Notes under the pieces: model-generated
What the model was told of the DNA's origin: nothing
Databases searched by the model: none
What the model saw: the letters and a program-made list of their open reading frames with translations, nothing else
Made by a program: the position numbers and the translations under genes
In this document: in pieces, positions 38,806 to 60,145 of the stretch
How the letters are laid out: the number at the start of each line of letters is the position of its first letter
How positions within the stretch are numbered: the stretch's first letter is position 1
Assembly: GCF_947494015.1 (NCBI RefSeq)
Contig: NZ_CANLTL010000004.1
Location: 186,001-250,000, forward strand
DNA length: 64,000 nt
DNA from: an uncultured Cellulomonas sp.
Lineage (GTDB): Bacteria > Actinomycetota > Actinomycetes > Actinomycetales > Cellulomonadaceae
Direction: 5' to 3'

Positions 38806-38832
38806 TTCAGTCATGGACCGCATGACCGATAC
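38806..38832 (+). promoter_or_regulatory. candidate FliA/WhiG-type promoter of the GGDEF-EAL gene
   Basis: TTCA (38806-38809), 15 bp, ACCGATAC (38825-38832), 8 nt before ATG 38841. It resembles the actinobacterial sigma-28 pattern CTCA-N15-17-GCCGATAA. The same bases can also be read as a leaderless-type GATACT box 7 nt before the ATG. Confidence 0.4.
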
Positions 38833-38840
38833 TCGGGGGC

Positions 38841-41063
38841 ATGTCCGAGGCAGCGTCGTCGATCGCGGTGGTCACGCAGAGCGTGATCGCCGGCCTGGTC
38901 GCGGGCCTGTGCCTCCTCCAGGTGATCTGGTGGCGCAGCGACCGCGGCCGCAGCGGGTCGGGCTGGCTGCTCACGTGGACGGTCGCGATCGCGGTGCTGC
39001 TGTCGGTCAACATCGGCCTGTCGACGCTGGCCGTCACCGACGGCTCCTACAGCTCGGTCGTGTTCGTGCGGGCGCAGGTGCTCGCGGTGTGCGTCGTGCT
39101 CGCCGTGCCCACGGTCCGGGCGTTCACCGGTGGGCCACCCGTCCGGCCGTGGGTGATCGCGGCGACCGCGGCGTTCGCGCTGCGGGCCGGGATCTGGCTC
39201 ACCACCGACCTGGTGCTGGTGGACGGAAGCGGGGCCGCGATGGCCCGGGGGCCGCTGTCCGTGCCCACGTTCTGCCTGCCGCTCGCCGCGGTGGCCGCCT
39301 ACGTGGTGCTCGCGCTGCGCCGGGTGCGGGACCGTCGCACGCTCGTGGTGATCGCGGGAACGAGCGTCGTCTCGGTCGTCCTGCTCACGCTGCCGTACCT
39401 CGCCCCGGTCGGACCCTGGACCCATCCGCTGACCGTCGTGTGGACCGTCCCGCTGGCCGGGGGCCTCACCGCGCTGGGTCTGCGCCGGCTCGCCGTCGTG
39501 GAGCGCGACGCCCGCCGCCAGCACGCGATGCGCGACGCGGTGGCCGACCTGGGCACGTCCGCCTGGTACGCGACCGACGCGGACGGGCTGCTCGTCGAGG
39601 CGGAGAGCGCCGCGCAGCGCGTGCTGCGTGACCCGTCGATCCACGCCAGCCTCGAGCCGCTGCCGCGCGGGCGGTTCGCGGCGCGGCTCGTGGGCGCCGG
39701 GGGGCCGTCGGAGCACGACGACACCCGTCGGTTCCTCGACGAGCTGGCACGCGTGGTCTCGACGGCGGCCGAGCGCATCACCCTGGGTCGTGACCTCGAG
39801 CGGGCGGCGTTCACCGACTCGCTCACCGGACTGCCCAACCGCCGAGCCCTGGACCGGCACCTGGCCGACGTGCTCGTGCGCGCCCGGCAGGACCGCTCAC
39901 GCCAGGCCGTCCTGCACTGCGACATCGACGGGTTCAAGGTCGAGAACGACCTGCACGGGCACACCTGGGGGGACGAGCTGCTGGTCCGCACGGCGGCGCA
40001 CCTGCGCCGGTGCGTCGCCGCGGACGACGTGGTCGCGCGCTTCGGCGGTGACGAGTTCGTCGTCGTGGTCCAGCAGCCGGGCAGCGACGACGAGCTGGTC
40101 GCGCTCGCCAACCGGATCCGCCACGGGCTCACCGACGACGGCGACCGTGCCCTGCCGCTGCTGTCCGTCGGGGTCGCGGGCTGGTGCCCGCTGGCCGGCG
40201 GCGAGCCGGACCACCTGCTGCGGCAGGCCGGCACCGCGATGCTCGAGAGCAAGCGCCGCCGGTCCGGCGTCGTGGTGTTCGACGACGCGCTGCGGGCCCG
40301 GATGCAGGCCGACGAGGAGCTGCGCCGAGAGCTGGGGATCGCGCTCGTGGAGGACGAGTTCACGGCGTACTTCCAGCCCGTCGTGGAGGCCGCGTCGATG
40401 CGGGTCGTGGGGGTCGAGGTGCTCGCCCGCTGGGACCACGGGGGCCGGATCCGGATGCCCGGCGAGTGGCTGTCGTTCGCCGAGGAGACCGGGCTCATCG
40501 TGCCGATCGGGCGGCGCGTGCTCGCCGTCGCGCGTACCGGCGCGCAGGGCATGGGGCTGCCGGTCATGGTGAACGTCGCGGCCCGGCAGCTCGCCGAGCC
40601 GGGCTTCGTCGACCAGCTTATCGCCGACTGGGGCTCCGCGGACTGGCGCACCCTGACCCTGGAGATCACCGAGAGCGCCCTGCTGCAGGACATCCCCCAC
40701 GTGCTCGCAGCGCTCCAGGTGCTGCGGGGACTCGGCGCCCGCATCGCGATCGACGACTTCGGGACCGGCTACAGCTCGTTCGCCCGGCTCGCCACCCTGC
40801 CGGTCGACGTGCTGAAGATCGACCGCGCCTTCGTCGACGCGGTGACGACCGATCAGGGCCGGGCCGTGGTCGCCGCGATCGTGTCGCTCGCGGACGCCTA
40901 CGACCTGGACGTGGTCGCCGAGGGCGTCGAGACCGTGCAGCAGCTCGACGCGCTCGTGGAGCTCGGGGTCCCCAAGCTCCAGGGGTACCTGCTCGGTCGT
41001 CCGGCGCCGGGCCGGCCACGGCCGGTCGCGGTGCCCCGGCCGGCCCCGGCCGCACAGTCCTGA
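38841..41063 (+). CDS. membrane GGDEF-EAL cyclic-di-GMP enzyme
   Basis: 740 residues. About seven N-terminal membrane segments (residues 10-215) carry a diguanylate cyclase domain. That domain has DSLTGLPNRRALDRHL, DIDGFKVENDLHGHTWGDELL and GGDEF at 402-406. The EAL domain follows with EVLARW (526 on), NVAARQL, EITES, DDFGTGYSSFARL, LKIDRAFV, VAEGVET and LQGYLLGRP. All catalytic residues of both domains look intact, so it may make and degrade c-di-GMP. The inhibitory RxxD site before GGDEF is absent. It is the only large plus-strand gene in the right two-thirds of the window and sits between nusB and pyrR. Confidence 0.95.
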   Translation: MSEAASSIAVVTQSVIAGLVAGLCLLQVIWWRSDRGRSGSGWLLTWTVAIAVLLSVNIGLSTLAVTDGSYSSVVFVRAQVLAVCVVLAVPTVRAFTGGPPVRPWVIAATAAFALRAGIWLTTDLVLVDGSGAAMARGPLSVPTFCLPLAAVAAYVVLALRRVRDRRTLVVIAGTSVVSVVLLTLPYLAPVGPWTHPLTVVWTVPLAGGLTALGLRRLAVVERDARRQHAMRDAVADLGTSAWYATDADGLLVEAESAAQRVLRDPSIHASLEPLPRGRFAARLVGAGGPSEHDDTRRFLDELARVVSTAAERITLGRDLERAAFTDSLTGLPNRRALDRHLADVLVRARQDRSRQAVLHCDIDGFKVENDLHGHTWGDELLVRTAAHLRRCVAADDVVARFGGDEFVVVVQQPGSDDELVALANRIRHGLTDDGDRALPLLSVGVAGWCPLAGGEPDHLLRQAGTAMLESKRRRSGVVVFDDALRARMQADEELRRELGIALVEDEFTAYFQPVVEAASMRVVGVEVLARWDHGGRIRMPGEWLSFAEETGLIVPIGRRVLAVARTGAQGMGLPVMVNVAARQLAEPGFVDQLIADWGSADWRTLTLEITESALLQDIPHVLAALQVLRGLGARIAIDDFGTGYSSFARLATLPVDVLKIDRAFVDAVTTDQGRAVVAAIVSLADAYDLDVVAEGVETVQQLDALVELGVPKLQGYLLGRPAPGRPRPVAVPRPAPAAQS

Positions 41064-48037: not shown

Positions 48038-48727
48038 TCAGCTGTCCTCCTGGACGTCGAAGCGGTGCGTAAGGGCCTGGTCGGTCACCTGCACGCTGGC
48101 GCTGACGTCGTAGTGCAGCGCCCCGTCCTCGTCGGCGGTGAGGGTCACGGCGGACACCCACGCGTCGGAGAGCCCCGGCGTGGCGTTCAGGGCGGAGACC
48201 CAGTCCGCGGTGGCGGGCAGGGTGGTGGTGCTGGCGGTGAGGGTCAGCCGAGCCAGGCTCGCGGCCTGCAGCGGGTCGACGGCGGGCGCCGCGGCCACCA
48301 TCGGTGTCGCCGCGGTGAGGGTGGCCGAGTGCAGCTCGGCTCCGTCGGGCAGGACGGCGAGGACGGATCGCAGCACGGGTGCCCACGACACCTCGGTGGA
48401 GAAGCCCTGGGCGCGCGCCTCCTGCAGGAGGGCGACCCGGTTGAGCACGGTCGGGACGTCGGCGTAGGCGAGCTGCTGCTGCGTGAGGGTGGCCGTCCTG
48501 GCCTGCGCGGCCTCGAGCACGGCGTCGGCCGCGTCGACCTGGCGGTCCGCGGCGACGTAGCCGGCGACCAGCGCCAAGGTGAGCGCGGACAGGCCCCCGA
48601 CGAGCCACCGGGACAGCCGCTGCACGGCCCGGCGGGCCCGGATCTCGGGCGGCAGCAGGTTGACCTGGGCGAGGGGCGGTGCGGACGACGTGTGCGTCGT
48701 CGAGGGACGGTCGAGGGTGACGGTCAT
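48038..48727 (-). CDS. pilN: PilN-like type IV pilus assembly protein
   Basis: 229 residues. The cytosolic N-terminus contains AQVNLLPPEI, the conserved PilN motif (I/V-NLLP) that docks into PilM. One membrane helix (WLVGGLSALTLALVAGYVAA), a short coiled coil and an extracytoplasmic domain follow. ATG 48727 overlaps pilM (ATGA). With no outer membrane, no pilP or pilQ is expected, and none is seen. Confidence 0.88.
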   Translation of the reverse strand: MTVTLDRPSTTHTSSAPPLAQVNLLPPEIRARRAVQRLSRWLVGGLSALTLALVAGYVAADRQVDAADAVLEAAQARTATLTQQQLAYADVPTVLNRVALLQEARAQGFSTEVSWAPVLRSVLAVLPDGAELHSATLTAATPMVAAAPAVDPLQAASLARLTLTASTTTLPATADWVSALNATPGLSDAWVSAVTLTADEDGALHYDVSASVQVTDQALTHRFDVQEDS

Positions 48728-49797
48728 GCTGCAGCTCCGAACGCGAGTCCGAGCGGGATGGCGAGCGCGTGCTGGTCCCGGACGAGGTCGGGGTCGGGCG
48801 CGGCGCCCTTGCCCGTGCTCAGCTGGAGGGTGGACAGCGGCTGGCCGTGCGTGACCGCCGTCCGGCTGACGCTGGCCAGGTGCTGACCGAGCCCCGGCAG
48901 CTGCGACCCGCCGCCGGTGAGGACGACGAGCTCCACGGCGGCGCCCGGGTTGTTGCTCGCGTAGTAGACGAGCGTGTTGCGCACCGCCTCGACGAGCGAG
49001 GTGGTCACCGCCGCGATGCGCTCGGCTGCCGCCGCCCGCTCGGGGTCGACCGTCGAGCCGATGCCGATGTGCCGCTTGACCTGCTCGGCGTCGGCACGGC
49101 TGATCCCGAGCGCGATCGCGACGGCGTCGGTCACGTCCTGGCCGCCCATCGGCAGCATCCGGACGAACTTGGGGGTGCCCGCGGCGGTGATCGCGAGGGT
49201 GGTCACGCGGGCTCCGATGTCGAGCAGCGCGACGGTGCGCTCGCCGACGTCGCCGCGGGTCATCACCCGCGACAGGGCGAACGCGCCGAGGTCGACCATG
49301 ACGGGCCGCAACCCCGCGGCCTCCACGGCCGAGGTGTTGGCGAGCACGGTCTCCTTCGTGGCGGCGACGAGGAGGCCCTGGAGCATCGCGCCGTGCTCGC
49401 CGGTCACGGACCCGGTGGTGACGTAGTCCAGCAGCGCGTCCTCGACCGCGACGGGCAGCAGGTCCTCCACCTGGAACGGCAGCGCGGTCCGCACCTTGTC
49501 GGCGGGCATCCACGGCAGGTCGAGGTCACGGACGACGACCCGCTGGTTGCCGATGCCCACGACGACGTCCTTGTGGCTGAACCCGGTCCGGGCCCACAGC
49601 TGTCGGAGCGCCGCGGCGACCGTGGCGGTCTCGGCCACCTCCCCGTCACGCACGGCTCCGCGCGGCAGGTCGACCTGACCGACCCGCACCACCGTGGCGC
49701 TGCCGGCGCGCGACGGACCACCCTTGCCGAACTCGAGCTCGGCCGCGCGCACGTGCGTCGTGCCGATGTCGAGCCCGATGACTCGTCCTCTGGCCAC
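48724..49797 (-). CDS. pilM: PilM, actin-like pilus assembly ATPase
   Basis: Cytosolic actin-fold protein that binds the PilN tail. 357 residues: phosphate-1 RVIGLDIGTTHVRAAEL, DLPWMPADKVRTALPFQVEDLLPVAVEDALLDY (the family-specific region), phosphate-2 ALLDIGARVTTL and adenosine VVLTGGGSQLPGLGQHL. GTG 49797 was chosen. It lies 29 nt after the start expected from a FliA-type promoter in the 91-bp gap after pilD. Confidence 0.93.
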   Translation of the reverse strand: MARGRVIGLDIGTTHVRAAELEFGKGGPSRAGSATVVRVGQVDLPRGAVRDGEVAETATVAAALRQLWARTGFSHKDVVVGIGNQRVVVRDLDLPWMPADKVRTALPFQVEDLLPVAVEDALLDYVTTGSVTGEHGAMLQGLLVAATKETVLANTSAVEAAGLRPVMVDLGAFALSRVMTRGDVGERTVALLDIGARVTTLAITAAGTPKFVRMLPMGGQDVTDAVAIALGISRADAEQVKRHIGIGSTVDPERAAAAERIAAVTTSLVEAVRNTLVYYASNNPGAAVELVVLTGGGSQLPGLGQHLASVSRTAVTHGQPLSTLQLSTGKGAAPDPDLVRDQHALAIPLGLAFGAAA

Positions 49798-49832: not shown

Positions 49833-49860
49833 CCATCGGCGCCCCACCGGTCCGCGTGAG
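49833..49860 (-). promoter_or_regulatory. FliA/WhiG-type promoter of pilM
   Basis: CTCA (49860-49857), 16 bp, GCCGATGG (49840-49833). Two positions differ from the GCCGATAA class consensus, and the -35 matches CTCA exactly. Confidence 0.55.
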
Positions 49861-49888
49861 GGATCGCCCCCGGGCAAGCCGTGCCGGG

Positions 49889-50731
49889 TCAGACCAGCAG
49901 GCCGAGGTAGGCAGCCCACAGCGGCTCCCCCACCACGACGCCGGCGGCGGCGCCAACGAGCATCCACGGGCCGAACGGGATGCCCGACGTGCGGCTCGCG
50001 CGTCCCGTGACGAGCAGCCCGACCGCGAACACCCCGCCGAGCACGAAGGCGGCGAAGGCGCCGACGGCCAGGGCGCCCCAGCCGACCCACCCCAGGTGCA
50101 GACCGAGCACGCCCGCGAGCTTGACGTCGCCGAAGCCCATGCCCGTCGGGTAGGCCAGCACCATCGCGAAGTACGCGGTCCACAGCACGGCCGCCCCGAC
50201 GACGCCGCGCACCAGCGCCGCCCAGTCGCCGGTCGCCGCGCTCGCGACGGCGAGCAGGACCAGCCCGACGAGGTAGGAGGGCAGCACGATCCGGTCCGGC
50301 AGCCGGTGGGTGTCGATGTCGATCAGGGCGAGCGCGACGGCCACCGCCGCGAGGTACCAGAACGCCGGCAGGGCCCACGCCCCGCCCGGATCCAGCCCGA
50401 ACCGCGCGGCGACCGCGACGAAGAGCACGGCGGTCCCCGCCTCGACGAGCGGGTAGCGCGTCGAGATCCGCATGCCGCAGGCGCGGCACCGCCCGCGCAG
50501 CGCCAGCCACGACACCACCGGCACGTTGTCCCGCGGCGCGACCCGCCGGCCGCAGCCCGGGCACGCGCTCGGCGGCCGGGACAGCGACTCCCCGCGCGGC
50601 AGGCGCCACACCACGACGTTGACGAACGAGCCGACGGCGAGCCCGAGCAGCGCCACGAGGAGGGTGAGCAGGCCGGCGAGCGCCGGGTCGACCGGCACGT
50701 GGAGCGGCCCGGCCGCCGTCGCACCGGTCAT
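49889..50731 (-). CDS. pilD: prepilin peptidase PilD
   Basis: Polytopic aspartyl protease that cleaves and N-methylates type IV prepilins. 280 residues: first helix LLVALLGLAVGSFVNVVVWRLPRGES, the four-cysteine cytosolic domain (CPGCGRR, CRACGMR), the first Asp in DIDTHRLPD and the second in GMGFGDVKLAG. ATG 50731 overlaps the gene upstream (ATGA). It will process the four prepilins of the cluster. Confidence 0.96.
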   Translation of the reverse strand: MTGATAAGPLHVPVDPALAGLLTLLVALLGLAVGSFVNVVVWRLPRGESLSRPPSACPGCGRRVAPRDNVPVVSWLALRGRCRACGMRISTRYPLVEAGTAVLFVAVAARFGLDPGGAWALPAFWYLAAVAVALALIDIDTHRLPDRIVLPSYLVGLVLLAVASAATGDWAALVRGVVGAAVLWTAYFAMVLAYPTGMGFGDVKLAGVLGLHLGWVGWGALAVGAFAAFVLGGVFAVGLLVTGRASRTSGIPFGPWMLVGAAAGVVVGEPLWAAYLGLLV

Positions 50732-52533
50732 CGGTACGACCCGTCCGCACGCATCGCCCGGCCCACCTCGACCCACACGTTCACGCCGTAGGTCACGTTC
50801 ACCGGCGAGAGGAACTTCGGAGGTCCCACCGACGTGAACCTCTCGTCGTACACGTAGTTCTTGGCGTAGCCGTTGGTGCCGCTGCCGCCCCGCACGATGC
50901 CCCGGAACCGCTGGGCGATGGCGCCGTTCACGGTCAGCGTGCCGCGGTTGCCGCCACGGTCGTAGTTCTGCACCCCGAAGGTGTGCGCGACGGACATGAT
51001 CGCCGCGTCGATCCGGCGGTTCGAGCCGCCGAGCAGGCTCTGCCTGGACGAGGTCACCGGGTTCCACACGAAGACGGCGTTGTTCCCGATGAGCCCGAGC
51101 ATGTCCCGGCGCGCGTCGGCCAGCTTGACGTCCCCGACGGCGTAGATGTAGTTCTCCGCGGCGATGGTGACCTGGCCCTGCAGCACCCCGGAGACGAACA
51201 CGTCGCCGTTGCGGGGTCCGTAGGCGGGTTGCGCCTGGGTGGACCCCAGGGGCGCGGCCTCGGTCGGCAGCGGGTAGCCGAGCCCGTTGCCGGCGTCGGT
51301 CGCCGTGGACGGGGTCAGCCCGGCCGGGGGCGTCGCGGCGTAGTTCGGGTCGGTGTCCCGGGTGGGGACGTTCTGCACGTAGACGACGTTGTCGTCCGGG
51401 ACGGGCACCACCGCACCGGTCGGCCCGCCCAGGCTCCCGGGGTCGCTCCCGGGACGGCCGCAGTGCGCCGGCGCGCTGCCGGACGTCGGCGTGTCCCCGA
51501 CCACGTTGGTGGCCCGTGTCCACGGCGACCGCACGACCATCGTGCCGTCCCCGACCAACGTGATCGCCGTGGGCCCGGTGTAGAGGCAACCCGGGGTCGA
51601 CACGCCCTGACCGACCAGGTCAGAGCGCATCTCCTTGCGCAGGAGCGTGTTCGTGGCGGGCATCGCGATGACCGGGTGGTAGGCGGGGCTGCCGGGGATC
51701 TCGAAGGTCCCGGCGCCGCACGCCACCCCCGGGGAGTCCTGCCGCACGTACCGGGGCCCGGTCGCCGGGTTGAACGCCGTGCTCACCCGGGCCTTGAACG
51801 TCGCGCTGCAGGCGGTGCGGAGGGTGTCGTTGGAGTGCAGCGGCCCGCGGATGACGTCGCCGGACCCGAACGTGATCTCGGAGCACAGGCCGTCCGAGCG
51901 GCGTCCGGCCCATGCGTACCTGCCGCACTCGGTGTCCCAGAGGGCCCGGAGCTGCTCCCTGGTCCCGTACCCCGCAGCCACCCACTGCGCGACGAGGATG
52001 TCGGGGTCCTGGATCTCGAAGTCGGTGAAGTAGAGGAAGTCGGCGAAGCCCTGCTGACGCAGGTCGGCGACGACGGTCCGGGTCTGGCCGTTCGCCCGGC
52101 CCGTGGACCGGACCCGGACGGTGCCGTCGGCGTAGAAGCGCCGGCTGTCCACCTCGTACCGGAACGACGACGCGCCACCGCTGCCGGCCACGGTGGCCCA
52201 CGTCCCGCCCACCCCGACGCCGAAGGCGGGGTTCGTGGCCGCGGCCGGGGGCAGCGTGACGGCGCTGCCCGCGCTGAAGGCGTGCGCAGGGTTGCCGTAC
52301 CGGAAGTACGTCGTGTCGTCCGCGAGGCGGCTCTCGAACTCCTCGATGCCCGCGTAGGCCGCGGCCAGCGCCGCGTTCCAGTCCTGCGTCGCGCGCGCCG
52401 AGCGCGTCGAGGCGATCGAGTACGAGATGGCGGCGACCATGAGGATCGACAGCACGACGCCGGCGCCGATGACCGTGATCAGCGCGACGCCGCGGTCACG
52501 GTCCGCCCCACCGGGACGTCGTCGCCGGTTCAT
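50728..52533 (-). CDS. PilX-like large minor pilin
   Basis: 601 residues. The N-terminus DRGVALITVIGAGVVLSILMVAAISYSIAS is a prepilin-like helix of the PilX type: cleavage after Gly 15 is possible, but the +5 residue is Thr, not Glu, as in GspK/PilX-like tip subunits. The large exported domain contains FADFLYFTDFEIQDPDI and GDVIRGPLHSNDTL, which I know from similar actinobacterial proteins without assigned function, and six or so cysteines that could form disulfides. It is likely a pilus-tip subunit (inference). ATG 52533 overlaps the preceding gene (ATGA). Confidence 0.75.
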   Translation of the reverse strand: MNRRRRPGGADRDRGVALITVIGAGVVLSILMVAAISYSIASTRSARATQDWNAALAAAYAGIEEFESRLADDTTYFRYGNPAHAFSAGSAVTLPPAAATNPAFGVGVGGTWATVAGSGGASSFRYEVDSRRFYADGTVRVRSTGRANGQTRTVVADLRQQGFADFLYFTDFEIQDPDILVAQWVAAGYGTREQLRALWDTECGRYAWAGRRSDGLCSEITFGSGDVIRGPLHSNDTLRTACSATFKARVSTAFNPATGPRYVRQDSPGVACGAGTFEIPGSPAYHPVIAMPATNTLLRKEMRSDLVGQGVSTPGCLYTGPTAITLVGDGTMVVRSPWTRATNVVGDTPTSGSAPAHCGRPGSDPGSLGGPTGAVVPVPDDNVVYVQNVPTRDTDPNYAATPPAGLTPSTATDAGNGLGYPLPTEAAPLGSTQAQPAYGPRNGDVFVSGVLQGQVTIAAENYIYAVGDVKLADARRDMLGLIGNNAVFVWNPVTSSRQSLLGGSNRRIDAAIMSVAHTFGVQNYDRGGNRGTLTVNGAIAQRFRGIVRGGSGTNGYAKNYVYDERFTSVGPPKFLSPVNVTYGVNVWVEVGRAMRADGSYR

Positions 52534-53258
52534 GAGGTGGCCCTTCGGGACAGGCCCAGGTTGGGCAGCCCGACGCTGTTGCGCAGGACGACGGGCCGGG
52601 CCCGCCCGGTGGCATCGGCCTGGACGGAGACGGTGACGGTGACGCTCGCGACGCCGGCGAGCTGGTTGGCGGCGAGGCCGGCGGAGCCCGGGACGAGCTC
52701 GTCGCCGTCGGCGTCGTGGTAGCGGAAGGTGCTCACCGAGCCCGTGGCCGGCGGGGTGAGGCCCCGACCCAGGGTGCGGGTCCACGCGGCCCCGGTCCAG
52801 GTGTCGGGCGCGAGCTGGAACGGGGCGGCGGGCAGGCCCGCGAAGGTCCAGTACGGCGCGCTGCCGGCGACGGCCGGCCACCGGCTCTCGGTCAACTGGC
52901 CGGCGTCGGTGACGTCGAACCGCACCACGACCGGGCTCGGAGCGTCCGAGTCGGTGTCGACGTAGGTGCGCACGACGAGGGCATGCGGGCCGGCGACCAG
53001 GAACGCGGGGTCGTCCGTGGCCTGGCCCGCCACCTTGACGGTGGCGGCCGACCGGATGACCCGGGTGACCTCCCGCATGACGACGGACGCCTCGCGCGTG
53101 CTGTCGGTGAGGGACCGGTCGCGGGTGAAGGCGCCGGACACGGTCACGGTGAGTCCGACGAGCAGCACCCCCAGCAGCGAGAGCACCGTCATCGTGACGA
53201 GCAGCTCGGCGAGGGTCGTGCCCGCCTCGGCGTCACGCCCGCGCACCCGACGCCTCAT
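52530..53258 (-). CDS. PilW-like minor pilin
   Basis: 242 residues. Prepilin signal with cleavage after Gly 13: AG, then TTLAELLVTMTVLSLLGVLLVGL with Glu at +5. The remaining exported domain is beta-rich (RTYVDTDSDAPSPVVVRFDV, STFRYHDADGDEL). It belongs to the PilW/PulJ-type minor pilins that start pilus assembly. ATG 53258 overlaps the previous gene (ATGA). Confidence 0.8.
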   Translation of the reverse strand: MRRRVRGRDAEAGTTLAELLVTMTVLSLLGVLLVGLTVTVSGAFTRDRSLTDSTREASVVMREVTRVIRSAATVKVAGQATDDPAFLVAGPHALVVRTYVDTDSDAPSPVVVRFDVTDAGQLTESRWPAVAGSAPYWTFAGLPAAPFQLAPDTWTGAAWTRTLGRGLTPPATGSVSTFRYHDADGDELVPGSAGLAANQLAGVASVTVTVSVQADATGRARPVVLRNSVGLPNLGLSRRATS

Positions 53259-54670
53259 GACGCGGATCGCGGGTCGAAGGTGACCACGCCCGACGGCGTG
53301 ACGGTCGTGCGCACCGGGACGCCGACGGGGACGATGCGGTCCGCGGTGAGCGCGACGGGGGGGTCGGCGGAGCCGACCACCCCATGGTCCAGGCTCCACG
53401 AGCCGTACGGCAGCAGGAGGGTCAGGCGGCCGTCCTCCGGGACCGGACGGGCCGCCGTCCCGGCGAAGGTCAACGTCGTGGGGTCGCACCCGGGCTGCCC
53501 CGGCACGGAGCCGGCCGCCGCGACCGCGCGCACGAAGCGGACCGTGCCGGCCGGGGCGACTCCGAGATCGACCCGGACCACACCGGTCCGCACCGACGCC
53601 GCGACCGCGGACCCGGGCGCCACGGCGATCCCGGCGCCCCGCCGCCCGGTCAGCGTCTGAGCGTTGTCGACGACCGGCTCCCAGGCGGCGGGGTCGGCCG
53701 CCGCGCAGGTTCCGGCGAACACCTCGTAGCCCGACGGGAACGGGTAGACGCGGAAGCGCATCGAGGGATCCGTCGTCGTCGTGGCCGGCCGCAGCGCGAA
53801 CACACCCCCCGACGCGTAGGTGCTCACGAATGACGTCGGCAGGTCGCCCGGGGCCCAGACGCTCTCGCCGGGCGCCGCGACGTACCCCGCGCCGAGCGCG
53901 GCGTCCACCTGCGCGTGCTGGTCGAGCTCGACCACCACCGCGACCGACGTCCCCTGCACGACACCGACCGACTGGGTCGACGACTCCGCCTGGCGGGTGT
54001 CGACGTACCCGGTGCGCGCGACCGTGACGTCGTACACGCCGGGCGTGACCATGAGGACGTAGCTGCACCCCTGCGCGTCGGTGAGCGCCGGCGCCCGGGT
54101 CAGCGGCCGGGCGGTGTTGCCGCTGACCGAGGCGGTCGGCGTCGCGGTGACCGTGACGCCCGAGCGGCCGGTGCCGCCGGCGCCGAGGACCGAGACGAGG
54201 ATGGTCCCCTTGGTGGGGTCGTTCACCTTGTCGCGCGGGTTCAGCACGGTCACGGACTGCACCGGCGTGGTCGCCGCGCGCATGCCGTCCCAGGTGACGG
54301 TGACCCGGACCCGCTTGTAGCGCAGCCCCGTGCCGCCGGCTCCGCACCGCACCTCGGTGGCCGGGTCCGCCACCCACTGGGTGGTCCGCCGCACCGTGAA
54401 GCGGTCGCCGTTGAGGGTGACCGTCCGGTCTCCGTCGAGCAGCGCGAACAGGTCGGCGCTGTCGCGGGCCAGGTCGATCTCCTCCGCGGCGAGGTTGGCG
54501 GCGACCTCACGGGCCCGCGAGTCCCGGGTCATCGACAGCACCTGGAGCATCCCGTAGATCACGCTGGTCGAGATGACCGCGAGGATCATCATCGCCACGA
54601 CCACCTCGACCAGCGTGAGACCGTCCTCACCCTGTCGCACGCGGTGGAGCGGGCCGGGGATGGTGCGCAC
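53255..54670 (-). CDS. PilV-like minor pilin with a carboxypeptidase-regulatory-like domain
   Basis: 471 residues, very long for a minor pilin. Prepilin signal GEDG, then LTLVEVVVAMMILAVISTSVIYG with Glu at +5. A pilin-like region is followed (about residues 150-230) by a beta-sandwich of the carboxypeptidase regulatory/PEGA-like type. Its segments are GTILVSVLGAGGTGRSGVTV, then LTDAQGCSYVLMVTPGVYDVTVARTGYVD. Another beta-rich region with cysteines (FAGTCAA, GQPGCDP) ends the protein. An adhesive tip role is plausible (inference). GTG 54670 has AGGAG 11 nt upstream. Confidence 0.78.
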   Translation of the reverse strand: MRTIPGPLHRVRQGEDGLTLVEVVVAMMILAVISTSVIYGMLQVLSMTRDSRAREVAANLAAEEIDLARDSADLFALLDGDRTVTLNGDRFTVRRTTQWVADPATEVRCGAGGTGLRYKRVRVTVTWDGMRAATTPVQSVTVLNPRDKVNDPTKGTILVSVLGAGGTGRSGVTVTATPTASVSGNTARPLTRAPALTDAQGCSYVLMVTPGVYDVTVARTGYVDTRQAESSTQSVGVVQGTSVAVVVELDQHAQVDAALGAGYVAAPGESVWAPGDLPTSFVSTYASGGVFALRPATTTTDPSMRFRVYPFPSGYEVFAGTCAAADPAAWEPVVDNAQTLTGRRGAGIAVAPGSAVAASVRTGVVRVDLGVAPAGTVRFVRAVAAAGSVPGQPGCDPTTLTFAGTAARPVPEDGRLTLLLPYGSWSLDHGVVGSADPPVALTADRIVPVGVPVRTTVTPSGVVTFDPRSAS

Positions 54671-54735
54671 GGGCGACGACTCCTCTCGGGACGGTCTCGG
54701 GTGGGGCGGGGGGGAGCACGCGGGTCGCAGCGAGC

Positions 54736-54768
54736 GTGTGGGGCGCCGCGGCACGCGACGCCCCACAC
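54736..54768 (-). terminator. hairpin after pilA
   Basis: A 15-bp stem (54736-54750 with 54754-54768, one U-G wobble) and a 3-nt loop, 13 nt after the pilA stop. No U-tract. It probably stabilises pilA mRNA or limits read-through to the minor pilins, giving more pilin than tip protein. Confidence 0.6.
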
Positions 54769-54781
54769 GACTGCGCCTGCG

Positions 54782-55204
54782 TCAGTTGGCCGTGGGGCCG
54801 GTGACCACGCCGGTCGAGCTGGTGTAGGTGTAGGTGTCCTTGTCGGCGGGCAGCTTCGAGTGCGTCGCCTTGATCGTGAACAGCGTGGTGTTCGTGGTGT
54901 CGACCGCCGGCGTCGTGGTGACGTCCGCGGTCGAGCGGAACCCGTTGGTGGTCAGCGCGGTGGAGTTGAGGCCGGTGAAGGTGCCGCCGTTGTCGACGCC
55001 GAAGGACTCCGCGGCGATGGCCGCGTTGCGCAGGTCGGCCTTCGTCTGGGTGGCCCAGCCCTTCTCCCGCTGGCTGAGGAACGTCGGGATGGCGATGGCG
55101 GCGAGGATGCCGATGATGACGATGACGACGAGGAGCTCGATGAGGGTGAAGCCCTTGTCGCCCTTCGCGCGCTCCTCCATGGTCTTGCGGATGCGAGCCT
55201 GCAT
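54782..55204 (-). CDS. pilA: major type IV pilin PilA
   Basis: 140 residues. Class A-type prepilin: leader of 18 residues ending in KGDKG, cleavage before FTLIELLVVIVIIGILAAIAIP with Phe +1 and Glu +5. A short globular domain rich in Thr and Asn and without cysteines follows, so there is no D-region disulfide. ATG 55204 has AAGAGG 7 nt upstream. The single copy with its own promoter and downstream hairpin marks it as the major subunit. Confidence 0.93.
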   Translation of the reverse strand: MQARIRKTMEERAKGDKGFTLIELLVVIVIIGILAAIAIPTFLSQREKGWATQTKADLRNAAIAAESFGVDNGGTFTGLNSTALTTNGFRSTADVTTTPAVDTTNTTLFTIKATHSKLPADKDTYTYTSSTGVVTGPTAN

Positions 55205-55278
55205 GGTCGTGCCTCTTTCGAGTCGTGATGATGTGGGGTGGGGCCCGCTGGTCGGGCTGTGTGTGTCAGGCACCCGGC

Positions 55279-55306
55279 CCATCGGCCGGTGGTGGACCCG
55301 GCGTAG
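55279..55306 (-). promoter_or_regulatory. candidate FliA/WhiG-type promoter of pilA
   Basis: CTAC (55306-55303), 16 bp, GCCGATGG (55286-55279), the same -10 as pilM. Start near 55272, leader about 68 nt. Confidence 0.45.
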
Positions 55307-55311
55307 CAATT

Positions 55312-55344
55312 CCTCCGGGGGTCCGCGGGGGATTCACCCGGAGG
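55312..55344 (-). terminator. hairpin between pilC and pilA
   Basis: CCTCCGGG (55312-55319) pairs with CCCGGAGG (55337-55344) around a 17-nt loop, downstream of pilC and just upstream of the pilA promoter. Weak on its own. Confidence 0.35.
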
Positions 55345-55420
55345 GCGGACCAGCGAGCCGGAAAGGGCGTGACCGGGCGGGAAGAACGCGACCAGGAATG
55401 CACGCGCGGGCGTCGACGCG

Positions 55421-56647
55421 TCAGCCGACGAGCTCGAAGATGGAGAAGATCGGCAGGTACAGGGCGACGATCATCCCGCCGACCACCACGCCGAGGACCG
55501 CGATCATGAGCGGCTCGATGAGGGAGGTCAGCTGGTCGGTGGTGGCGGCGACCTCGTCGTCGTAGAAGTCGGAGATCTTGCCGAGCATCGTCTCCATGGC
55601 GCCGGCGTCCTCGCCGGTCGCGATCATCTGCACCACCATCGGCGGGAACACCGGGTGCCTGGCCAGCGGCCCCGCGAGCGACTGCCCGGACCGCACGCTC
55701 TCGCGCACCTCCCGCACGGCGCGCTCGACGACCCAGCTGCCGCTCGTCTGCCCCACGATGTCCAGCGCCTGCAGGATGGGCACGCCCGCGCCCAGCATGG
55801 TGCCGAGGTTGCGGGTGAACCGTGCGACCGAGACCTTCGCGAGCAGCGGTCCGAAGACCGGGAGCCGGAGCAGCGCCGGATCCACCCGGGCGCGGACCGC
55901 CTCGTCCCGGCGGTGCGCGCGCCACCACAGCGACAGGGCGACCAGGACCACCGCGAGCGCCGGCGCGATCCACCTCATGAGCCCGGACAGCACCACGAGC
56001 ACCCGGGTCGGCAGCGGCAGCGTGCCGCCGAGGTCGGCGAACATGTCCTCGAACACCGGGACGATGAACAGCAGCATGCCGACCACGGCGAGGATCGCCA
56101 TGACGAACACCATCACCGGGTACGTCAGCGCGGACTTGATCCGGGCGCGCAGCTTGACCTCGGCCTCGTAGTTGTCGGCCACCGACCGCAGCGAGTCCTC
56201 GAGGAACCCGCCGATCTCGCCGGCCCGGATCATGTTGACCATCAGCGGGGGGAAGACGCCGGGGTGACGGCCCAGGGAGTCCGACAGCGCCGACCCGGCC
56301 TCGACGTCGACGCAGATCTGGCCGAGCACCTTGGCCAGGCCCTTGCTCGGAGTCTGCTCGGCGAGGATCGACAGCGCCTTGAGCAGCGACAGCCCGGCGG
56401 AGATCATCGTGGCCATCTGCCGTGACATGACGGCCAGGTCCTTCAGGACGACCCGTTCGGCCAGTGCGGGCAGCGTGATCTCCCGTTGCAGGCCGCTCGT
56501 GCGGACCTCTCCCACGGTGAGCGGTGCCATGCCCATCGTCCGCAGCCGGGTGACGACCGCGGCCTCGTTGCTGGCGTCGATGCGGCCCTTGACGACCTTG
56601 CCGTTCCTGTCGGCGACGGAGTACTCGAACGCGCGCGTGGCGACCAT
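55421..56647 (-). CDS. pilC: pilus platform protein PilC
   Basis: Inner-membrane platform on which PilB and PilT act. 408 residues of the T2SSF family: a N-terminal cytosolic region (FEYSVADRNGKVVKGRIDASNEAAVVTRLRTMG), then two homologous domains. Membrane segments include YPVMVFVMAILAVVGMLLFIVPVF and the C-terminal LIEPLMIAVLGVVVGGMIVALYLPIF. The MIRAGEIGGFLE and MIATGEDAGAMETML repeats are family signatures. ATG 56647 shares one base with the pilT stop (TGATG). Confidence 0.96.
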   Translation of the reverse strand: MVATRAFEYSVADRNGKVVKGRIDASNEAAVVTRLRTMGMAPLTVGEVRTSGLQREITLPALAERVVLKDLAVMSRQMATMISAGLSLLKALSILAEQTPSKGLAKVLGQICVDVEAGSALSDSLGRHPGVFPPLMVNMIRAGEIGGFLEDSLRSVADNYEAEVKLRARIKSALTYPVMVFVMAILAVVGMLLFIVPVFEDMFADLGGTLPLPTRVLVVLSGLMRWIAPALAVVLVALSLWWRAHRRDEAVRARVDPALLRLPVFGPLLAKVSVARFTRNLGTMLGAGVPILQALDIVGQTSGSWVVERAVREVRESVRSGQSLAGPLARHPVFPPMVVQMIATGEDAGAMETMLGKISDFYDDEVAATTDQLTSLIEPLMIAVLGVVVGGMIVALYLPIFSIFELVG

Positions 56648-58170
56648 CAGTGCACCCCCGTCCCGGGCATCCGGTGACCGGGTGCGGCCAGCCCGCTCGT
56701 GGTCAGTGCACTCATCGCCGAGGCCCCCTGGTTCATCCGGGCCGACCGACCCGCGAGGTTGTTGTAGTCGTCGACGTGCCGGGCCTTCTCGAGCCCGGTC
56801 TCGTAGGTGATGCGCCCCTCGCGCACGAGGCGCGCCAGGCTCTGGTCGAGGGTGTGCATGCCGTGGTCGGCGCCCGACTGCATGGCCGAGGAGATCTGGT
56901 GCGTCTTGCCCTCGCGGATGAGGTTGCGGATGGCGGGGGTCGCGAGCATGACCTCGGTCGCGACGACGCGGCCCAGACCGTTGGCCGTCCGGCACAGCGA
57001 CTGCGACACCACGGCCTGGGTGGCACCCGCCAGCTGGGTGCGGACCTGCGCGTGCTGCCCGGCCGGGAAGACGTCGATGATGCGGTCGATCGTCTGGGCG
57101 GCGTCCTGGGTGTGCAGGGTCGCGAAGACCAGGTGCCCCGTCTCGGCCGCTGTCAGGGCGACCGACATGGTCTCGAGGTCACGCAGCTCGCCGACCAGGA
57201 TGATGTCCGGGTCCTGCCGCAGGGCGTGCTTGAGCGCGCTCGCGAAGGACAGCGTGTCGGCGCCGACCTCGCGCTGGTTGACCAGGCAGCCCTTGTGCCG
57301 GTGCAGGAACTCGATCGGGTCCTCGACCGTCATGATGTGGTCGTTGCGGGTCCGGTTCGCCAGGTCGATGATCGACGCGAGCGTCGTGGACTTGCCCGAG
57401 CCGGTCGGTCCGGTGACCAGGACCAACCCCCGGGGCAGGCCGGCGAGGCCACCGACGACCGAGGGCATGCCGAGCTCCTCGAGGGGCTTGATCTCGTGCG
57501 GGATCAGCCGGAACGCGCCGCCGATCGACTCGCGCTGGCGATACAGGTTCACCCGGAACCGCGCCAGCCCCGGCACCGCGAGGGCGAGGTCGAGCTCGAG
57601 CTCGGCGTCGAACTGATCTCGCTGCCGCTGGGTCAGGCTCGCGAAGATCGACCGCTGGAGCGCCTCGCTGGTCAGGGCGGCGAATCCGTCCAGCGGCCGC
57701 AGCGCACCGTTCACCCGAACCATCGGCGTGGTCCCGCTCGTCAGGTGCAGGTCGGAGGCGCCGACCTCGACGGTGGCCCGCAGCGCCGCGTCCAGGTCGA
57801 CGCCGCCCTCCGACGACTCGGCCCGCATGCCCAGCCGCGCGCCGGGCCCCGCGGCCACCGCCGGGAGCGGCCCACCGGCCGCACCGGATGCGGGGTAGCC
57901 GGCCGCGCCGGGTGCGGGGAAGCCGGCCGGACCGGTCGGACCGGTCGGCAGCGGGCTGGCGAACAGGTCCTGCGCCGGCGGCGGGGGCGCGGTGGGCACC
58001 GTGGCGCCGGTGGCGGCCGCTGCCGGCACGTCGGGCGAGGGGACGTACGTCACGGGCATCAGGGACCTGGTGGTCCCAGGTGGTCCGGCCGTGTCGACGG
58101 GCCCGGTCGACATCGTGGTCGGCGCCCGGTCGGACCAGGACGGCGTCGGGTACGGCTCGGTCACGGGCAT
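56647..58170 (-). CDS. pilT: pilus retraction ATPase PilT
   Basis: Hexameric ATPase that depolymerises the pilus, giving twitching and DNA uptake. 507 residues. The PAS-like domain ASDLHLTSGTTPMVRVNGALRPL is followed by Walker A VTGPTGSGKST (254-261), Asp box TVEDPIEFLH, Walker B PDIILVGELRD and the PilT-specific AIRNLIREGK. Odd: the first 120 residues are a Pro/Ala/Gly/Thr-rich, probably disordered extension. ATG 58170 has GGAGG only 3 nt upstream; GTG 58164 has 9 nt and may be the true start. Confidence 0.94.
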   Translation of the reverse strand: MPVTEPYPTPSWSDRAPTTMSTGPVDTAGPPGTTRSLMPVTYVPSPDVPAAAATGATVPTAPPPPAQDLFASPLPTGPTGPAGFPAPGAAGYPASGAAGGPLPAVAAGPGARLGMRAESSEGGVDLDAALRATVEVGASDLHLTSGTTPMVRVNGALRPLDGFAALTSEALQRSIFASLTQRQRDQFDAELELDLALAVPGLARFRVNLYRQRESIGGAFRLIPHEIKPLEELGMPSVVGGLAGLPRGLVLVTGPTGSGKSTTLASIIDLANRTRNDHIMTVEDPIEFLHRHKGCLVNQREVGADTLSFASALKHALRQDPDIILVGELRDLETMSVALTAAETGHLVFATLHTQDAAQTIDRIIDVFPAGQHAQVRTQLAGATQAVVSQSLCRTANGLGRVVATEVMLATPAIRNLIREGKTHQISSAMQSGADHGMHTLDQSLARLVREGRITYETGLEKARHVDDYNNLAGRSARMNQGASAMSALTTSGLAAPGHRMPGTGVH

Positions 58171-58240
58171 GCGCCTCCACGTCTCGTCCGCCCACGGGTG
58201 GCGGGAGCGGTGCACCGTGGTCCGGTGCCTCTGCGGCTGT

Positions 58241-58270
58241 CCTATCGACCCGGTCGGTGCCGTCCATGAG
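58241..58270 (-). promoter_or_regulatory. FliA/WhiG-type promoter of pilT
   Basis: CTCA (58270-58267), 17 bp, GTCGATAG (within GGTCGATAGG, 58250-58241). The 10-mer is identical to that before pilB. Start near 58235, leader about 65 nt. Confidence 0.6.
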
Positions 58271-58379
58271 GGAGACGGGGTGGCGACGTCGGGCGGTCCG
58301 CACGCGGTCGCCGGGCCGGGGTTCGCGCCGACGACCAGGGCCACCCGCCCCGGTGGACCGTGCGGGGCGCGCCACGGCG

Positions 58380-60050
58380 TCAGGCGACGACCCGCAGCAC
58401 CTCCTCGACGGAGGTCAGCCCGGCGGTGACCTTGTCCCAGCCGTCCTGGCGCAGCGGCACCATGCCCTCCGCGCGCGCCGTCCGGGCGATCTCCGCGCTG
58501 GACGACCGGGCGACCACGTGCCGCTCGATGGCCTCCGTGACCTGCATGACCTCGTGCACCGCGAGCCGTCCGCGGTAGCCGGTCTTCGAGCACGAGACGC
58601 ACCCCACCGCGCGGTGCAGGACGGGCAGGTCCTCCCCCGGCGCCCAGGGGAACCCCGCCGCCGCGAGCTCGGCGGGGGTCGGTGCGTACGGCTGCTTGCA
58701 CTTCGCGCACAGCCGGCGCGCGAGGCGCTGGGCGACCACCGCATCCAGGGCGGAGCCGACGAGGAAGGGCTCGATGCCCATCTCGACCAGGCGGGTCACC
58801 GCCGACGGTGCGTCGTTGGTGTGCAGCGTGGACAGCACGAGGTGACCGGTCAGGGCGGCCTCCACGGAGATCTGCGCGGTCTCGTGGTCGCGGATCTCGC
58901 CGAGCAGCACGACGTCGGGGTCCGACCGCAGGATGGAGCGCAGCGCGCCGGCGAAGGTCAGCCCGGCCTTGGGGTTGACCTGCACCTGGTTGATGCCCGG
59001 CAGCCGGTACTCGACCGGGTCCTCCACGGTGATCACGTTGATCTCCGGACGCGAGACCGCGTTCACGGTCGCGTAGAGCGTCGTCGACTTGCCCGAACCG
59101 GTCGGCCCGGTCACCAGGATCATCCCGTAGGGCTTGGCGTACGATCGGCGGTACGCGGCCAGGTTGCCGTCCGTGAAGGACAGCTCGCGCAGGTCCAGGC
59201 TCGCGGTGGAGTTGTCGAGGATCCGCAGCACGATCTTCTCGCCCCACACGGTCGGCAGGGTGGCGACCCGCAGGTCCACCTTGCGACCGTTGTGGGTCAC
59301 CGACATGCGGCCGTCCTGGGGCTTGCGGCGCTCGGCGATGTCGATGTCCGCCAGGATCTTGATCCGGGAGACGACTCCGCTCTGGATCTGCTTGGGGGCC
59401 CGCTGGGTCTCGTGCAGCACACCGTCGATGCGGTAGCGCACCCGCAGGTGGTGCTCGGTCGGTTCGATGTGGATGTCCGAGGCCCGGTCGGTGATGGCCT
59501 GCGTGACCAGCAGGTTGACGAACCGGACGATCGGGGCCTCGGAGTCCGCGACGGCACCGGCGCGGGCGAGGTCCTCCTCGACGACCTGGAGCACCTCGAA
59601 CGCCGAGGACAGATCCTCCATCTCGCCGTCGGCGCGGCAGTAGCGGTCGATGGCGCGCAGCAGGTCGTCGTGGGTCGCGACCACCGGACGCACGGTCATC
59701 CCGGCCATGGCCCGGACGTCGTCGACGGCCACCACGTTGCCGGGGTTGGACGTCGCCACCACGAGAACGCCGTCCTTGACGGCGATCGGGAGCACGTCGT
59801 GACGCCGGCACAGGGCCGCCGGCACGCGGGCGACCGCGGCGCGGTCGACGGCGTAGTCCTCCAGGTCGATGAACTCCATGCCGACCTGCGTGGCGAGGGC
59901 GGCCGTCAGCTGCGCCTCGGAGACCACACCCGTGTCGACGAGCGTGCGCCCGAGCGACGTCCCGCGGGTGGACTGCTCGTCCAGGGCGGTCAGCAGCTGG
60001 GCCTGCGTGATGACGCCGCCGTCGAGCAGGATCTCGCCGAGCTGCTTCAC
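58380..60050 (-). CDS. pilB: pilus extension ATPase PilB with MshEN-type domain
   Basis: Hexameric ATPase that drives pilus assembly. 556 residues. The N-terminal domain (1-135) holds two 24-residue repeats at 3-26 and 32-55 (QLG-x-x-L pattern ending in Q), the layout of the c-di-GMP-binding MshEN domain. Then SDIHIEP, Walker A GPTGSGKS (315-322), Asp box TVEDPVEYRL, Walker B VVLLGEIRD (380-388), His box LSTLHTNDA and four zinc cysteines (448, 451, 484, 487). GTG 60050 has GGAGG 7 nt upstream. First gene of the cluster. Confidence 0.95.
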   Translation of the reverse strand: MKQLGEILLDGGVITQAQLLTALDEQSTRGTSLGRTLVDTGVVSEAQLTAALATQVGMEFIDLEDYAVDRAAVARVPAALCRRHDVLPIAVKDGVLVVATSNPGNVVAVDDVRAMAGMTVRPVVATHDDLLRAIDRYCRADGEMEDLSSAFEVLQVVEEDLARAGAVADSEAPIVRFVNLLVTQAITDRASDIHIEPTEHHLRVRYRIDGVLHETQRAPKQIQSGVVSRIKILADIDIAERRKPQDGRMSVTHNGRKVDLRVATLPTVWGEKIVLRILDNSTASLDLRELSFTDGNLAAYRRSYAKPYGMILVTGPTGSGKSTTLYATVNAVSRPEINVITVEDPVEYRLPGINQVQVNPKAGLTFAGALRSILRSDPDVVLLGEIRDHETAQISVEAALTGHLVLSTLHTNDAPSAVTRLVEMGIEPFLVGSALDAVVAQRLARRLCAKCKQPYAPTPAELAAAGFPWAPGEDLPVLHRAVGCVSCSKTGYRGRLAVHEVMQVTEAIERHVVARSSSAEIARTARAEGMVPLRQDGWDKVTAGLTSVEEVLRVVA

Positions 60051-60116
60051 AGGTGGTCCTCCGGGTGCGGGGCGCGGCCTCCGGACGTCGGGCACGACGT
60101 GGAGGGTGTCGCTGCG

Positions 60117-60145
60117 CCTATCGACCGCGGGGTCCCCGCGCTGAG
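60117..60145 (-). promoter_or_regulatory. FliA/WhiG-type promoter of pilB
   Basis: CTCA (60145-60142), 16 bp, GTCGATAG (within GGTCGATAGG, 60126-60117). Start near 60111, leader about 61 nt. Confidence 0.6.

Follow-up and report, generated by a model that had tools for sequence, protein, structure and literature searches.

A probable sigma-28-type promoter motif, likely read by WhiG, at type IV pilus and c-di-GMP enzyme genes of an uncultured Cellulomonas

Can a single sigma factor of the motility class govern both a type IV pilus and the enzymes of the second messenger cyclic di-GMP (c-di-GMP) in a Gram-positive bacterium? The question is raised by a 64,000-nucleotide (nt) stretch of DNA from an uncultured Cellulomonas sp. 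(hereafter the window; contig C4:186001-250000 of the genome designated G000), the minus strand of which encodes a type IV pilus cluster; family models identify pilB, pilT, pilA and pilM in it, and a pilC-like gene. A preliminary description of the window proposed that five sites, four before pil genes and one before a gene for a GGDEF-EAL protein, share one FliA/WhiG-type signature. The analyses described below indicate that one sigma-28-type motif, CTCA-N16/17-GYCGATRR, lies before pilB, pilT and pilM and, at no more than one mismatch, before 9 of 30 GGDEF genes and the flagellin gene; this motif is probably a promoter read by WhiG, which would place the pilus and the c-di-GMP enzymes in one regulon. 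The idea that one FliA/WhiG-class sigma factor serves both gene groups is supported by the genome-wide distribution of the motif, by the presence of WhiG and by conservation in relatives.

The motif in the pilus cluster and across the genome

Three sites in the cluster match the motif exactly, all on the minus strand: CTCA-N16-GTCGATAG before pilB (60118-60145), CTCA-N17-GTCGATAG before pilT (58242-58270) and CTCA-N16-GCCGATGG before pilM (49833-49860). They agree letter for letter with the sites described previously, as does the 10-mer GGTCGATAGG common to the pilB and pilT sites. Three exact sites within 10.3 kb remain a significant excess even at the enriched rate of this genome (Poisson p = 4e-5), and these three sites are solid, beyond chance. 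The two other members of the proposed signature are weaker candidates. The site before pilA (55279-55306, minus strand; CTAC-N16-GCCGATGG) has two mismatches, which is also the best number found in 46 of 329 control genes, and its score on the matrix introduced below stays beneath the 95th percentile of the controls. The site before the GGDEF-EAL gene (38806-38832, plus strand; TTCA-N15-ACCGATAC) departs from the strict pattern at three positions, as does the best site of 204 of the 329 controls; with a matrix built from the pil sites of relatives it scores 13.8 bits, a value reached by 2 of the 329 controls. Since the pilA genes called in relatives have a site with no more than one mismatch in 9 of 11 cases, the pilA site is plausible despite its own weakness. 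The five-site signature therefore stands firmly for pilB, pilT and pilM, and the pilA and GGDEF-EAL sites are plausible promoters of this class. From the end of the -10 element to the called start codon the distances are 35 nt for pilM, 67 for pilB, 71 for pilT, 74 for pilA and 8 for the GGDEF-EAL gene, and the near-equal leaders of pilB, pilT and pilA noted earlier are real.

Throughout the genome, CTCA-N15-17-GYCGATRG is matched 26 times, versus 3 times for the pattern read backwards. This reversed control is not sufficient by itself, as genomes lacking WhiG across the order exceed it too; we therefore rely on gene position, GGDEF enrichment and conservation. According to a simple codon-usage gene caller, 21 of the 26 exact sites are clear of every called gene and four are intragenic; the remaining one, at locus L030, overlaps the very end of the preceding gene. 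Given that 85.5% of bases are coding in 400 kb of control stretches, this extragenic placement has a binomial p of 8e-14, and the motif is thus not equally frequent inside coding sequence. Among 20 sites (the four intragenic matches and a repeat pair, L008/L024, being set aside), with spacers of 15, 16 and 17 allowed, the spacer is 16 in 18 and 17 in two (p = 2e-7), and 17 of 22 sites (repeat pair and L030 included) lie no more than 86 nt before a start codon. In five to seven of their eight positions the -10 octamers GYCGATRG agree with GCCGATAA, the -10 element that passages of PMC8325347 give, together with a TAAA -35 element, as the published consensus of the class.

GGDEF genes are strongly enriched downstream of the motif. 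From 34 profile matches we obtained 30 genes with a start, four matches (two split pairs) being excluded for want of a locus, and scored mismatches against CTCA-N15-17-GYCGATRR within 200 nt upstream of these and of the 329 control genes. At most one mismatch was found for 9 of the 30 (five with none, four with one) versus 2 of the 329 controls (Fisher p = 3e-9). Using a matrix of 28 sites drawn solely from pil genes of other genomes, 13 of the 30 reach 12 bits, the GGDEF-EAL gene of the window included, versus 4 of 329 controls (p = 1e-12); 11 of the 30 score less than 7 bits. In 5 of the 13 (L072, L078, L081, L084 and the window's gene, 38806-38841 from site to start) the -10 element ends 6-8 nt before the called start codon, so leaderless mRNAs are predicted to result. 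The five exact sites of this class precede L009, L010 (with PAS and EAL domains), L011 (the full gene of which contains the GGDEF match L062), L021 (with a 7TM sensor) and L025 (with MASE1). The c-di-GMP link first drawn from the window is upheld by the enrichment of GGDEF genes as a class, the strongest targets lying elsewhere in the genome and not at the window's own GGDEF-EAL gene.

The flagellin gene is preceded by CTCA-N16-CCCGATGA (one mismatch, 18.0 bits) and flgN by a site at one mismatch; judged by the flagellin site, the regulon may include the flagellum as well. The remaining exact sites elsewhere in the genome precede regulators (histidine kinases L023 and L028, response regulator L020), enzymes (VanY L013, amidase L031, acyltransferase L027 and, at 206 nt, 4-alpha-glucanotransferase L022), an Ig/fn3 protein (L007) and, in L018, L019, L029 and L030, four short proteins with no assigned family. 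The L008 and L024 matches were rejected as promoters, both lying inside one 373-bp repeat. This repeat occurs on two contigs at 97% identity (approximately 1444-1816 of the reversed loci), has an inverted part inside it and includes the match CTCA-N16-GTCGATGG. G001, a genome of the same genus, has two 28-mers like it, and an Rfam search of the repeat returned no family at the gathering threshold.

Within the window, the minus-strand products downstream of the sites are the pilus extension ATPase PilB (58380-60050; TIGR02538 its best family at 644.8 bits, under the cut-off of 675.65), the retraction ATPase PilT (56647-58170; TIGR01420, 478.5 bits, cut-off 319.1), a PilC-like platform protein (55421-56650; NF052606, 400.4 bits, under the cut-off of 700), a major-pilin-like PilA (54782-55204; prepilin N-terminal domain TIGR02532, 39.6 bits, cut-off 16.3) and PilM (48724-49797; TIGR01175, 168.5 bits, cut-off 133). 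The GGDEF-EAL c-di-GMP enzyme is encoded on the plus strand (38841-41063; PF00990, 113.3 bits; PF00563, 191.1 bits).

Conservation of the sites and the sigma factor that reads them

If the motif is a promoter, what reads it? G000 encodes a WhiG on contig C9 (TIGR02479, 263.1 bits, cut-off 189.6), the kind of FliA/WhiG-class sigma factor that the preliminary description had led one to expect in this genome. The protein scores 303.5 bits against chain 6pfj_A, Streptomyces venezuelae WhiG in its complex with RsiG, and the genes that follow whiG are presumably rpsB and tsf.

Among 15 loci of relatives, nine (L038-L043, L047, L052 and L059) keep the pilB site with no more than one mismatch, no clean site being found in L044, L045, L046, L048, L049 and L050. 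At the same stringency a site precedes pilM in 8 of 10 called genes, comparable to the 9 of 11 for pilA given above, and none of the remaining called genes in the nine pilB-positive loci has such a site. WhiG scores above cut-off in 13 of the 15 genomes that contribute these pilB loci; it is missing at that level from Planctomonas (L046) and from a Nitriliruptorales metagenome-assembled genome (L048), both of which are among those with no clean pilB site. Planctomonas has pil genes without the motif, and by eye its PilB lacks the MshEN repeat of the others. The best named matches of the window's PilB include Cellulomonas fimi, at 80%.

In G001, one protein of which is identical to a Cellulomonas aerilata protein, three GGDEF/EAL genes and a histidine kinase lie within 13 kb (C13:157905-170788; L168-L169), each with its own site, three of the sites being exact and one having a single mismatch. 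The spacing of these matches had suggested a pilB-pilT locus, a candidate rejected once the region proved to hold GGDEF/EAL genes instead. Sites precede 4 of 39 tested genes of this C13 stretch, versus 1 of 179 genes in a separate 200 kb of G001 (Fisher p = 0.004), and in G002 they precede a chemoreceptor gene and the CheA gene. Because G001 C13 and G002 C5 were chosen by pattern matches, they illustrate what the sites precede and give no unbiased rate.

The abundance of the motif also follows WhiG. Across six genomes of the family, CTCA-N16-17-GCCGATRR occurs 23 and 13 times in the WhiG-positive G000 and G060 (reversed control, 2 and 0) and 7, 0, 2 and 2 times in the WhiG-negative G012, G030, G045 and G074 (reversed control, 3, 2, 1 and 1). 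Among 79 genomes of the order, WhiG-positive genomes carry 3.43 copies per megabase (Mb; reversed, 0.56) and WhiG-negative genomes 2.16 (reversed, 0.66); this difference (p = 1e-5), confounded by coding background and by kinship, the lineages not being independent, lends weak support to WhiG, and part of the raw motif count can be coding background. In the draft genome of Flavimobilis rhizosphaerae (L041), WhiG is present and the pilB, pilA and pilM sites are kept, and no sigma match falls between 114 and 260 bits in this draft, the completeness of which is unstated; this combination favors WhiG as the reader.

Several observations weigh on the other side. Of 11 clear pilT genes of relatives, just 3 have a site before their called starts, which are uncertain, and four WhiG-positive relatives (L044, L045, L049 and L050) have no clean pilB site. 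The training sites of the matrix were picked via the consensus of the preliminary description and are not fully independent of it, and 17 of the 30 GGDEF genes remain under 12 bits. The -35 element is CTCA here and TAAA in the published consensus, and CTCA-N15-17-GCCGATAA, a search limited to the CTCA -35 element, has 0 matches in the genome. The WhiG-negative genomes of the order also exceed their reversed control (2.16 versus 0.66 per Mb). WhiG of G000 scores 342.1 bits against the WhiG equivalog model NF004935, 0.9 bit short of the cut-off of 343. Finally, G000 encodes two further FliA-class sigma factors, one on C18 beside flagellin (168.9 bits) and one on C15 (161.4 bits).

These two paralogues supply the strongest rival explanation, in which the sites are real sigma-28-type promoters read by the C18 or the C15 protein and the pilus belongs to the flagellar regulon proper. 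The C18 gene adjoins flagellin and has CTCA-N17-GCCGAAGG in its own upstream region, and both flagellin and flgN carry sites at one mismatch. Set against this are the F. rhizosphaerae draft, in which the pil sites are kept with WhiG and with no sigma match in the 114-260-bit range, and the four WhiG-negative genomes of the family, which largely lack a motif excess, a pattern in which loss of WhiG and loss of flagella are not told apart. The precedent in Rubrobacter, discussed below, likewise concerns WhiG (passages of PMC8325347). We regard a FliA-like reader as unlikely. The C15 gene is L003 (C15:66179-66823), and its 3.6-kb locus contains no flagellar-looking gene.

A transcription-factor operator could also present as a two-block motif, and for 5 of 22 sites the next start codon is more than 100 nt away. 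The near-fixed 16-bp spacing, the short distance to the start of the other 17 (some only 6-8 nt) and the letters that the -10 octamers share with GCCGATAA fit a promoter better, making an operator highly improbable. Chance matches in G+C-rich DNA are hardly credible as a general explanation in view of the 26 forward versus 3 reversed matches, the extragenic position, the GGDEF enrichment and the conservation; chance is contradicted for pilB, pilT and pilM but is possible for the two weak sites, before pilA and the GGDEF-EAL gene of the window, which many control genes equal by mismatch count. From the motif evidence we infer that the sites are active promoters and that WhiG, not one of its two FliA-like paralogues, reads them.

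A PilB with a predicted c-di-GMP domain and the apparent lack of the RsiG brake on WhiG

How might c-di-GMP act on such a system? PilB of the window carries an N-terminal MshE-type c-di-GMP domain (NF053729, 60.5 bits, cut-off 38; MshEN PF05157, 87.1 bits, cut-off 23.1). The first residues of its 24-residue repeats are Q and S, where the motif has R. On the motif evidence, RNA polymerase carrying WhiG would transcribe the pil genes and, along with them, genes for a group of GGDEF/EAL enzymes; judging from the identity of the PilB domain alone, the c-di-GMP made or removed by these co-expressed enzymes might then tune pilus extension post-translationally.

In Streptomyces, c-di-GMP arms the anti-sigma factor RsiG against WhiG, and a related switch operates in Rubrobacter (passages of PMC8325347). 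The RsiG profile PF22802 finds no match in G000 at E<=1; it matches 24 of the 79 genomes of the order, 23 of them over the cut-off, and all 24 are WhiG-positive. In the eight RsiG loci examined, the neighbors of rsiG are presumably gcvT-like, dtd or other genes of one block. Neighbors of this type are present in G000 (C1:140001-144695), where an unrelated 370-amino-acid gene lies between them and no RsiG-like gene is found.

A second family came to light from a sub-cut-off match of 25 bits in G060. This small RsiG-like protein is found in 19 of 41 Cellulomonadaceae genomes at E<=5.5e-7 (the query's own genome and two of the genus included), and its gene lies between nth-like and crp-like genes in 15 loci (L117-L131), four further loci having few or no gene calls. 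In alignment A1, 12 of 13 members match PF22802, mostly weakly (best E 1.8e-6), and a comparison of profiles relates the family weakly to true RsiG (probability 19.5, E 0.0012); the nth-crp family is likely akin to true RsiG. The first helix of true RsiGs reads E-S-R-Q-D in seven of eight, the eighth having H for Q. In the RsiG-like family all 13 aligned members have lost the E and the S and retain the R; 11 have lost the Q, and 12 retain the D.

In G000, nth and crp are approximately 260 nt apart (C1, approximately 148279-148538) with no RsiG-like gene between them, and an RsiG hidden as a divergent gene was accordingly rejected, an assembly error at this empty slot being possible. With no RsiG found by profile or at two syntenic loci, WhiG of G000 would be free of c-di-GMP control by RsiG. 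We put forward, as a tentative scenario more doubtful than the regulon itself, that the brake on WhiG decayed stepwise in the Cellulomonadaceae, from an RsiG-like protein with an eroded c-di-GMP signature, present in many members, to gene loss in G000, such that WhiG moved from downstream to upstream of c-di-GMP, which would then act only on the finished machine through PilB. Further along the same contig, C1:154049-158927 (L165) suggests an integrated element, with genes that we take, without a family call, to be an integrase, a small excisionase-like gene and an FtsK-like gene.

Precedents and meaning for Cellulomonas

The closest precedent is the WhiG regulon of Rubrobacter radiotolerans (Schumacher et al., 2021), which according to passages of PMC8325347 includes type IV pili and genes for diguanylate cyclases and phosphodiesterases (DGC/PDE). 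In these passages the predicted sites for which a start was mapped number 12: three belong to the type IV pilus cluster, and five precede DGC/PDE genes. G000 resembles it in its WhiG-class sigma factor, in the exact motifs at pilB, pilT and pilM of a type IV pilus cluster and in the motifs before several DGC/PDE genes (here the 9 of 30 GGDEF genes versus 2 of 329 controls). The two differ in that the RsiG of Rubrobacter is of the single-motif kind and the search there used TAAA / GCCGATAA (passages of PMC8325347), whereas no RsiG was found in G000 and its motif is CTCA / GYCGATRG; in G000 the flagellin gene has a site too.

In Actinoplanes missouriensis, WhiG-like sigma factors direct type IV pilus and flagellar genes (Kimura, 2019, and others, as cited in passages of PMC8325347). 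There, as in G000, WhiG is present; RsiG is absent from A. missouriensis according to the same passages, and none was found in G000. Unlike G000, A. missouriensis is filamentous and sporulating, and the passages of PMC8325347 do not describe c-di-GMP enzyme genes in its regulon. With Streptomyces WhiG the G000 protein shares homology (the 303.5 bits to 6pfj_A), but no RsiG was found here and the predicted targets are pilus and signaling genes, not sporulation genes. The c-di-GMP control of pilus extension by MshE/PilB proteins is paralleled by the NF053729 and MshEN matches of PilB, for which binding is predicted, and the Q and S that open its repeats set it apart from the MshE motif.

The preliminary description had called the link between a motility sigma factor, a pilus and c-di-GMP not normally described for Gram-positive pili. 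This does not hold, as the passages of PMC8325347 already report pili with DGC/PDE genes under WhiG in Rubrobacter and pili with flagella under WhiG-like sigma factors in Actinoplanes, and the WhiG-pilus-c-di-GMP link itself is not new. A literature search found no paper on this link in Cellulomonas, a passing mention being possible. What appears new, as read from the genome, is a predicted pilus and c-di-GMP regulon in a Cellulomonas-like genome that has flagellar genes and lacks a detectable RsiG.

The analysis makes the predicted regulon concrete: the pil genes, 9 to 13 of the 30 GGDEF genes tested and flagellin, to which a species of the same genus adds CheA and a chemoreceptor. It suggests that WhiG can keep a regulon of pilus and c-di-GMP genes after the anti-sigma factor that senses c-di-GMP is lost, and it turns the question of this regulon into one that becomes testable in culturable Cellulomonas.

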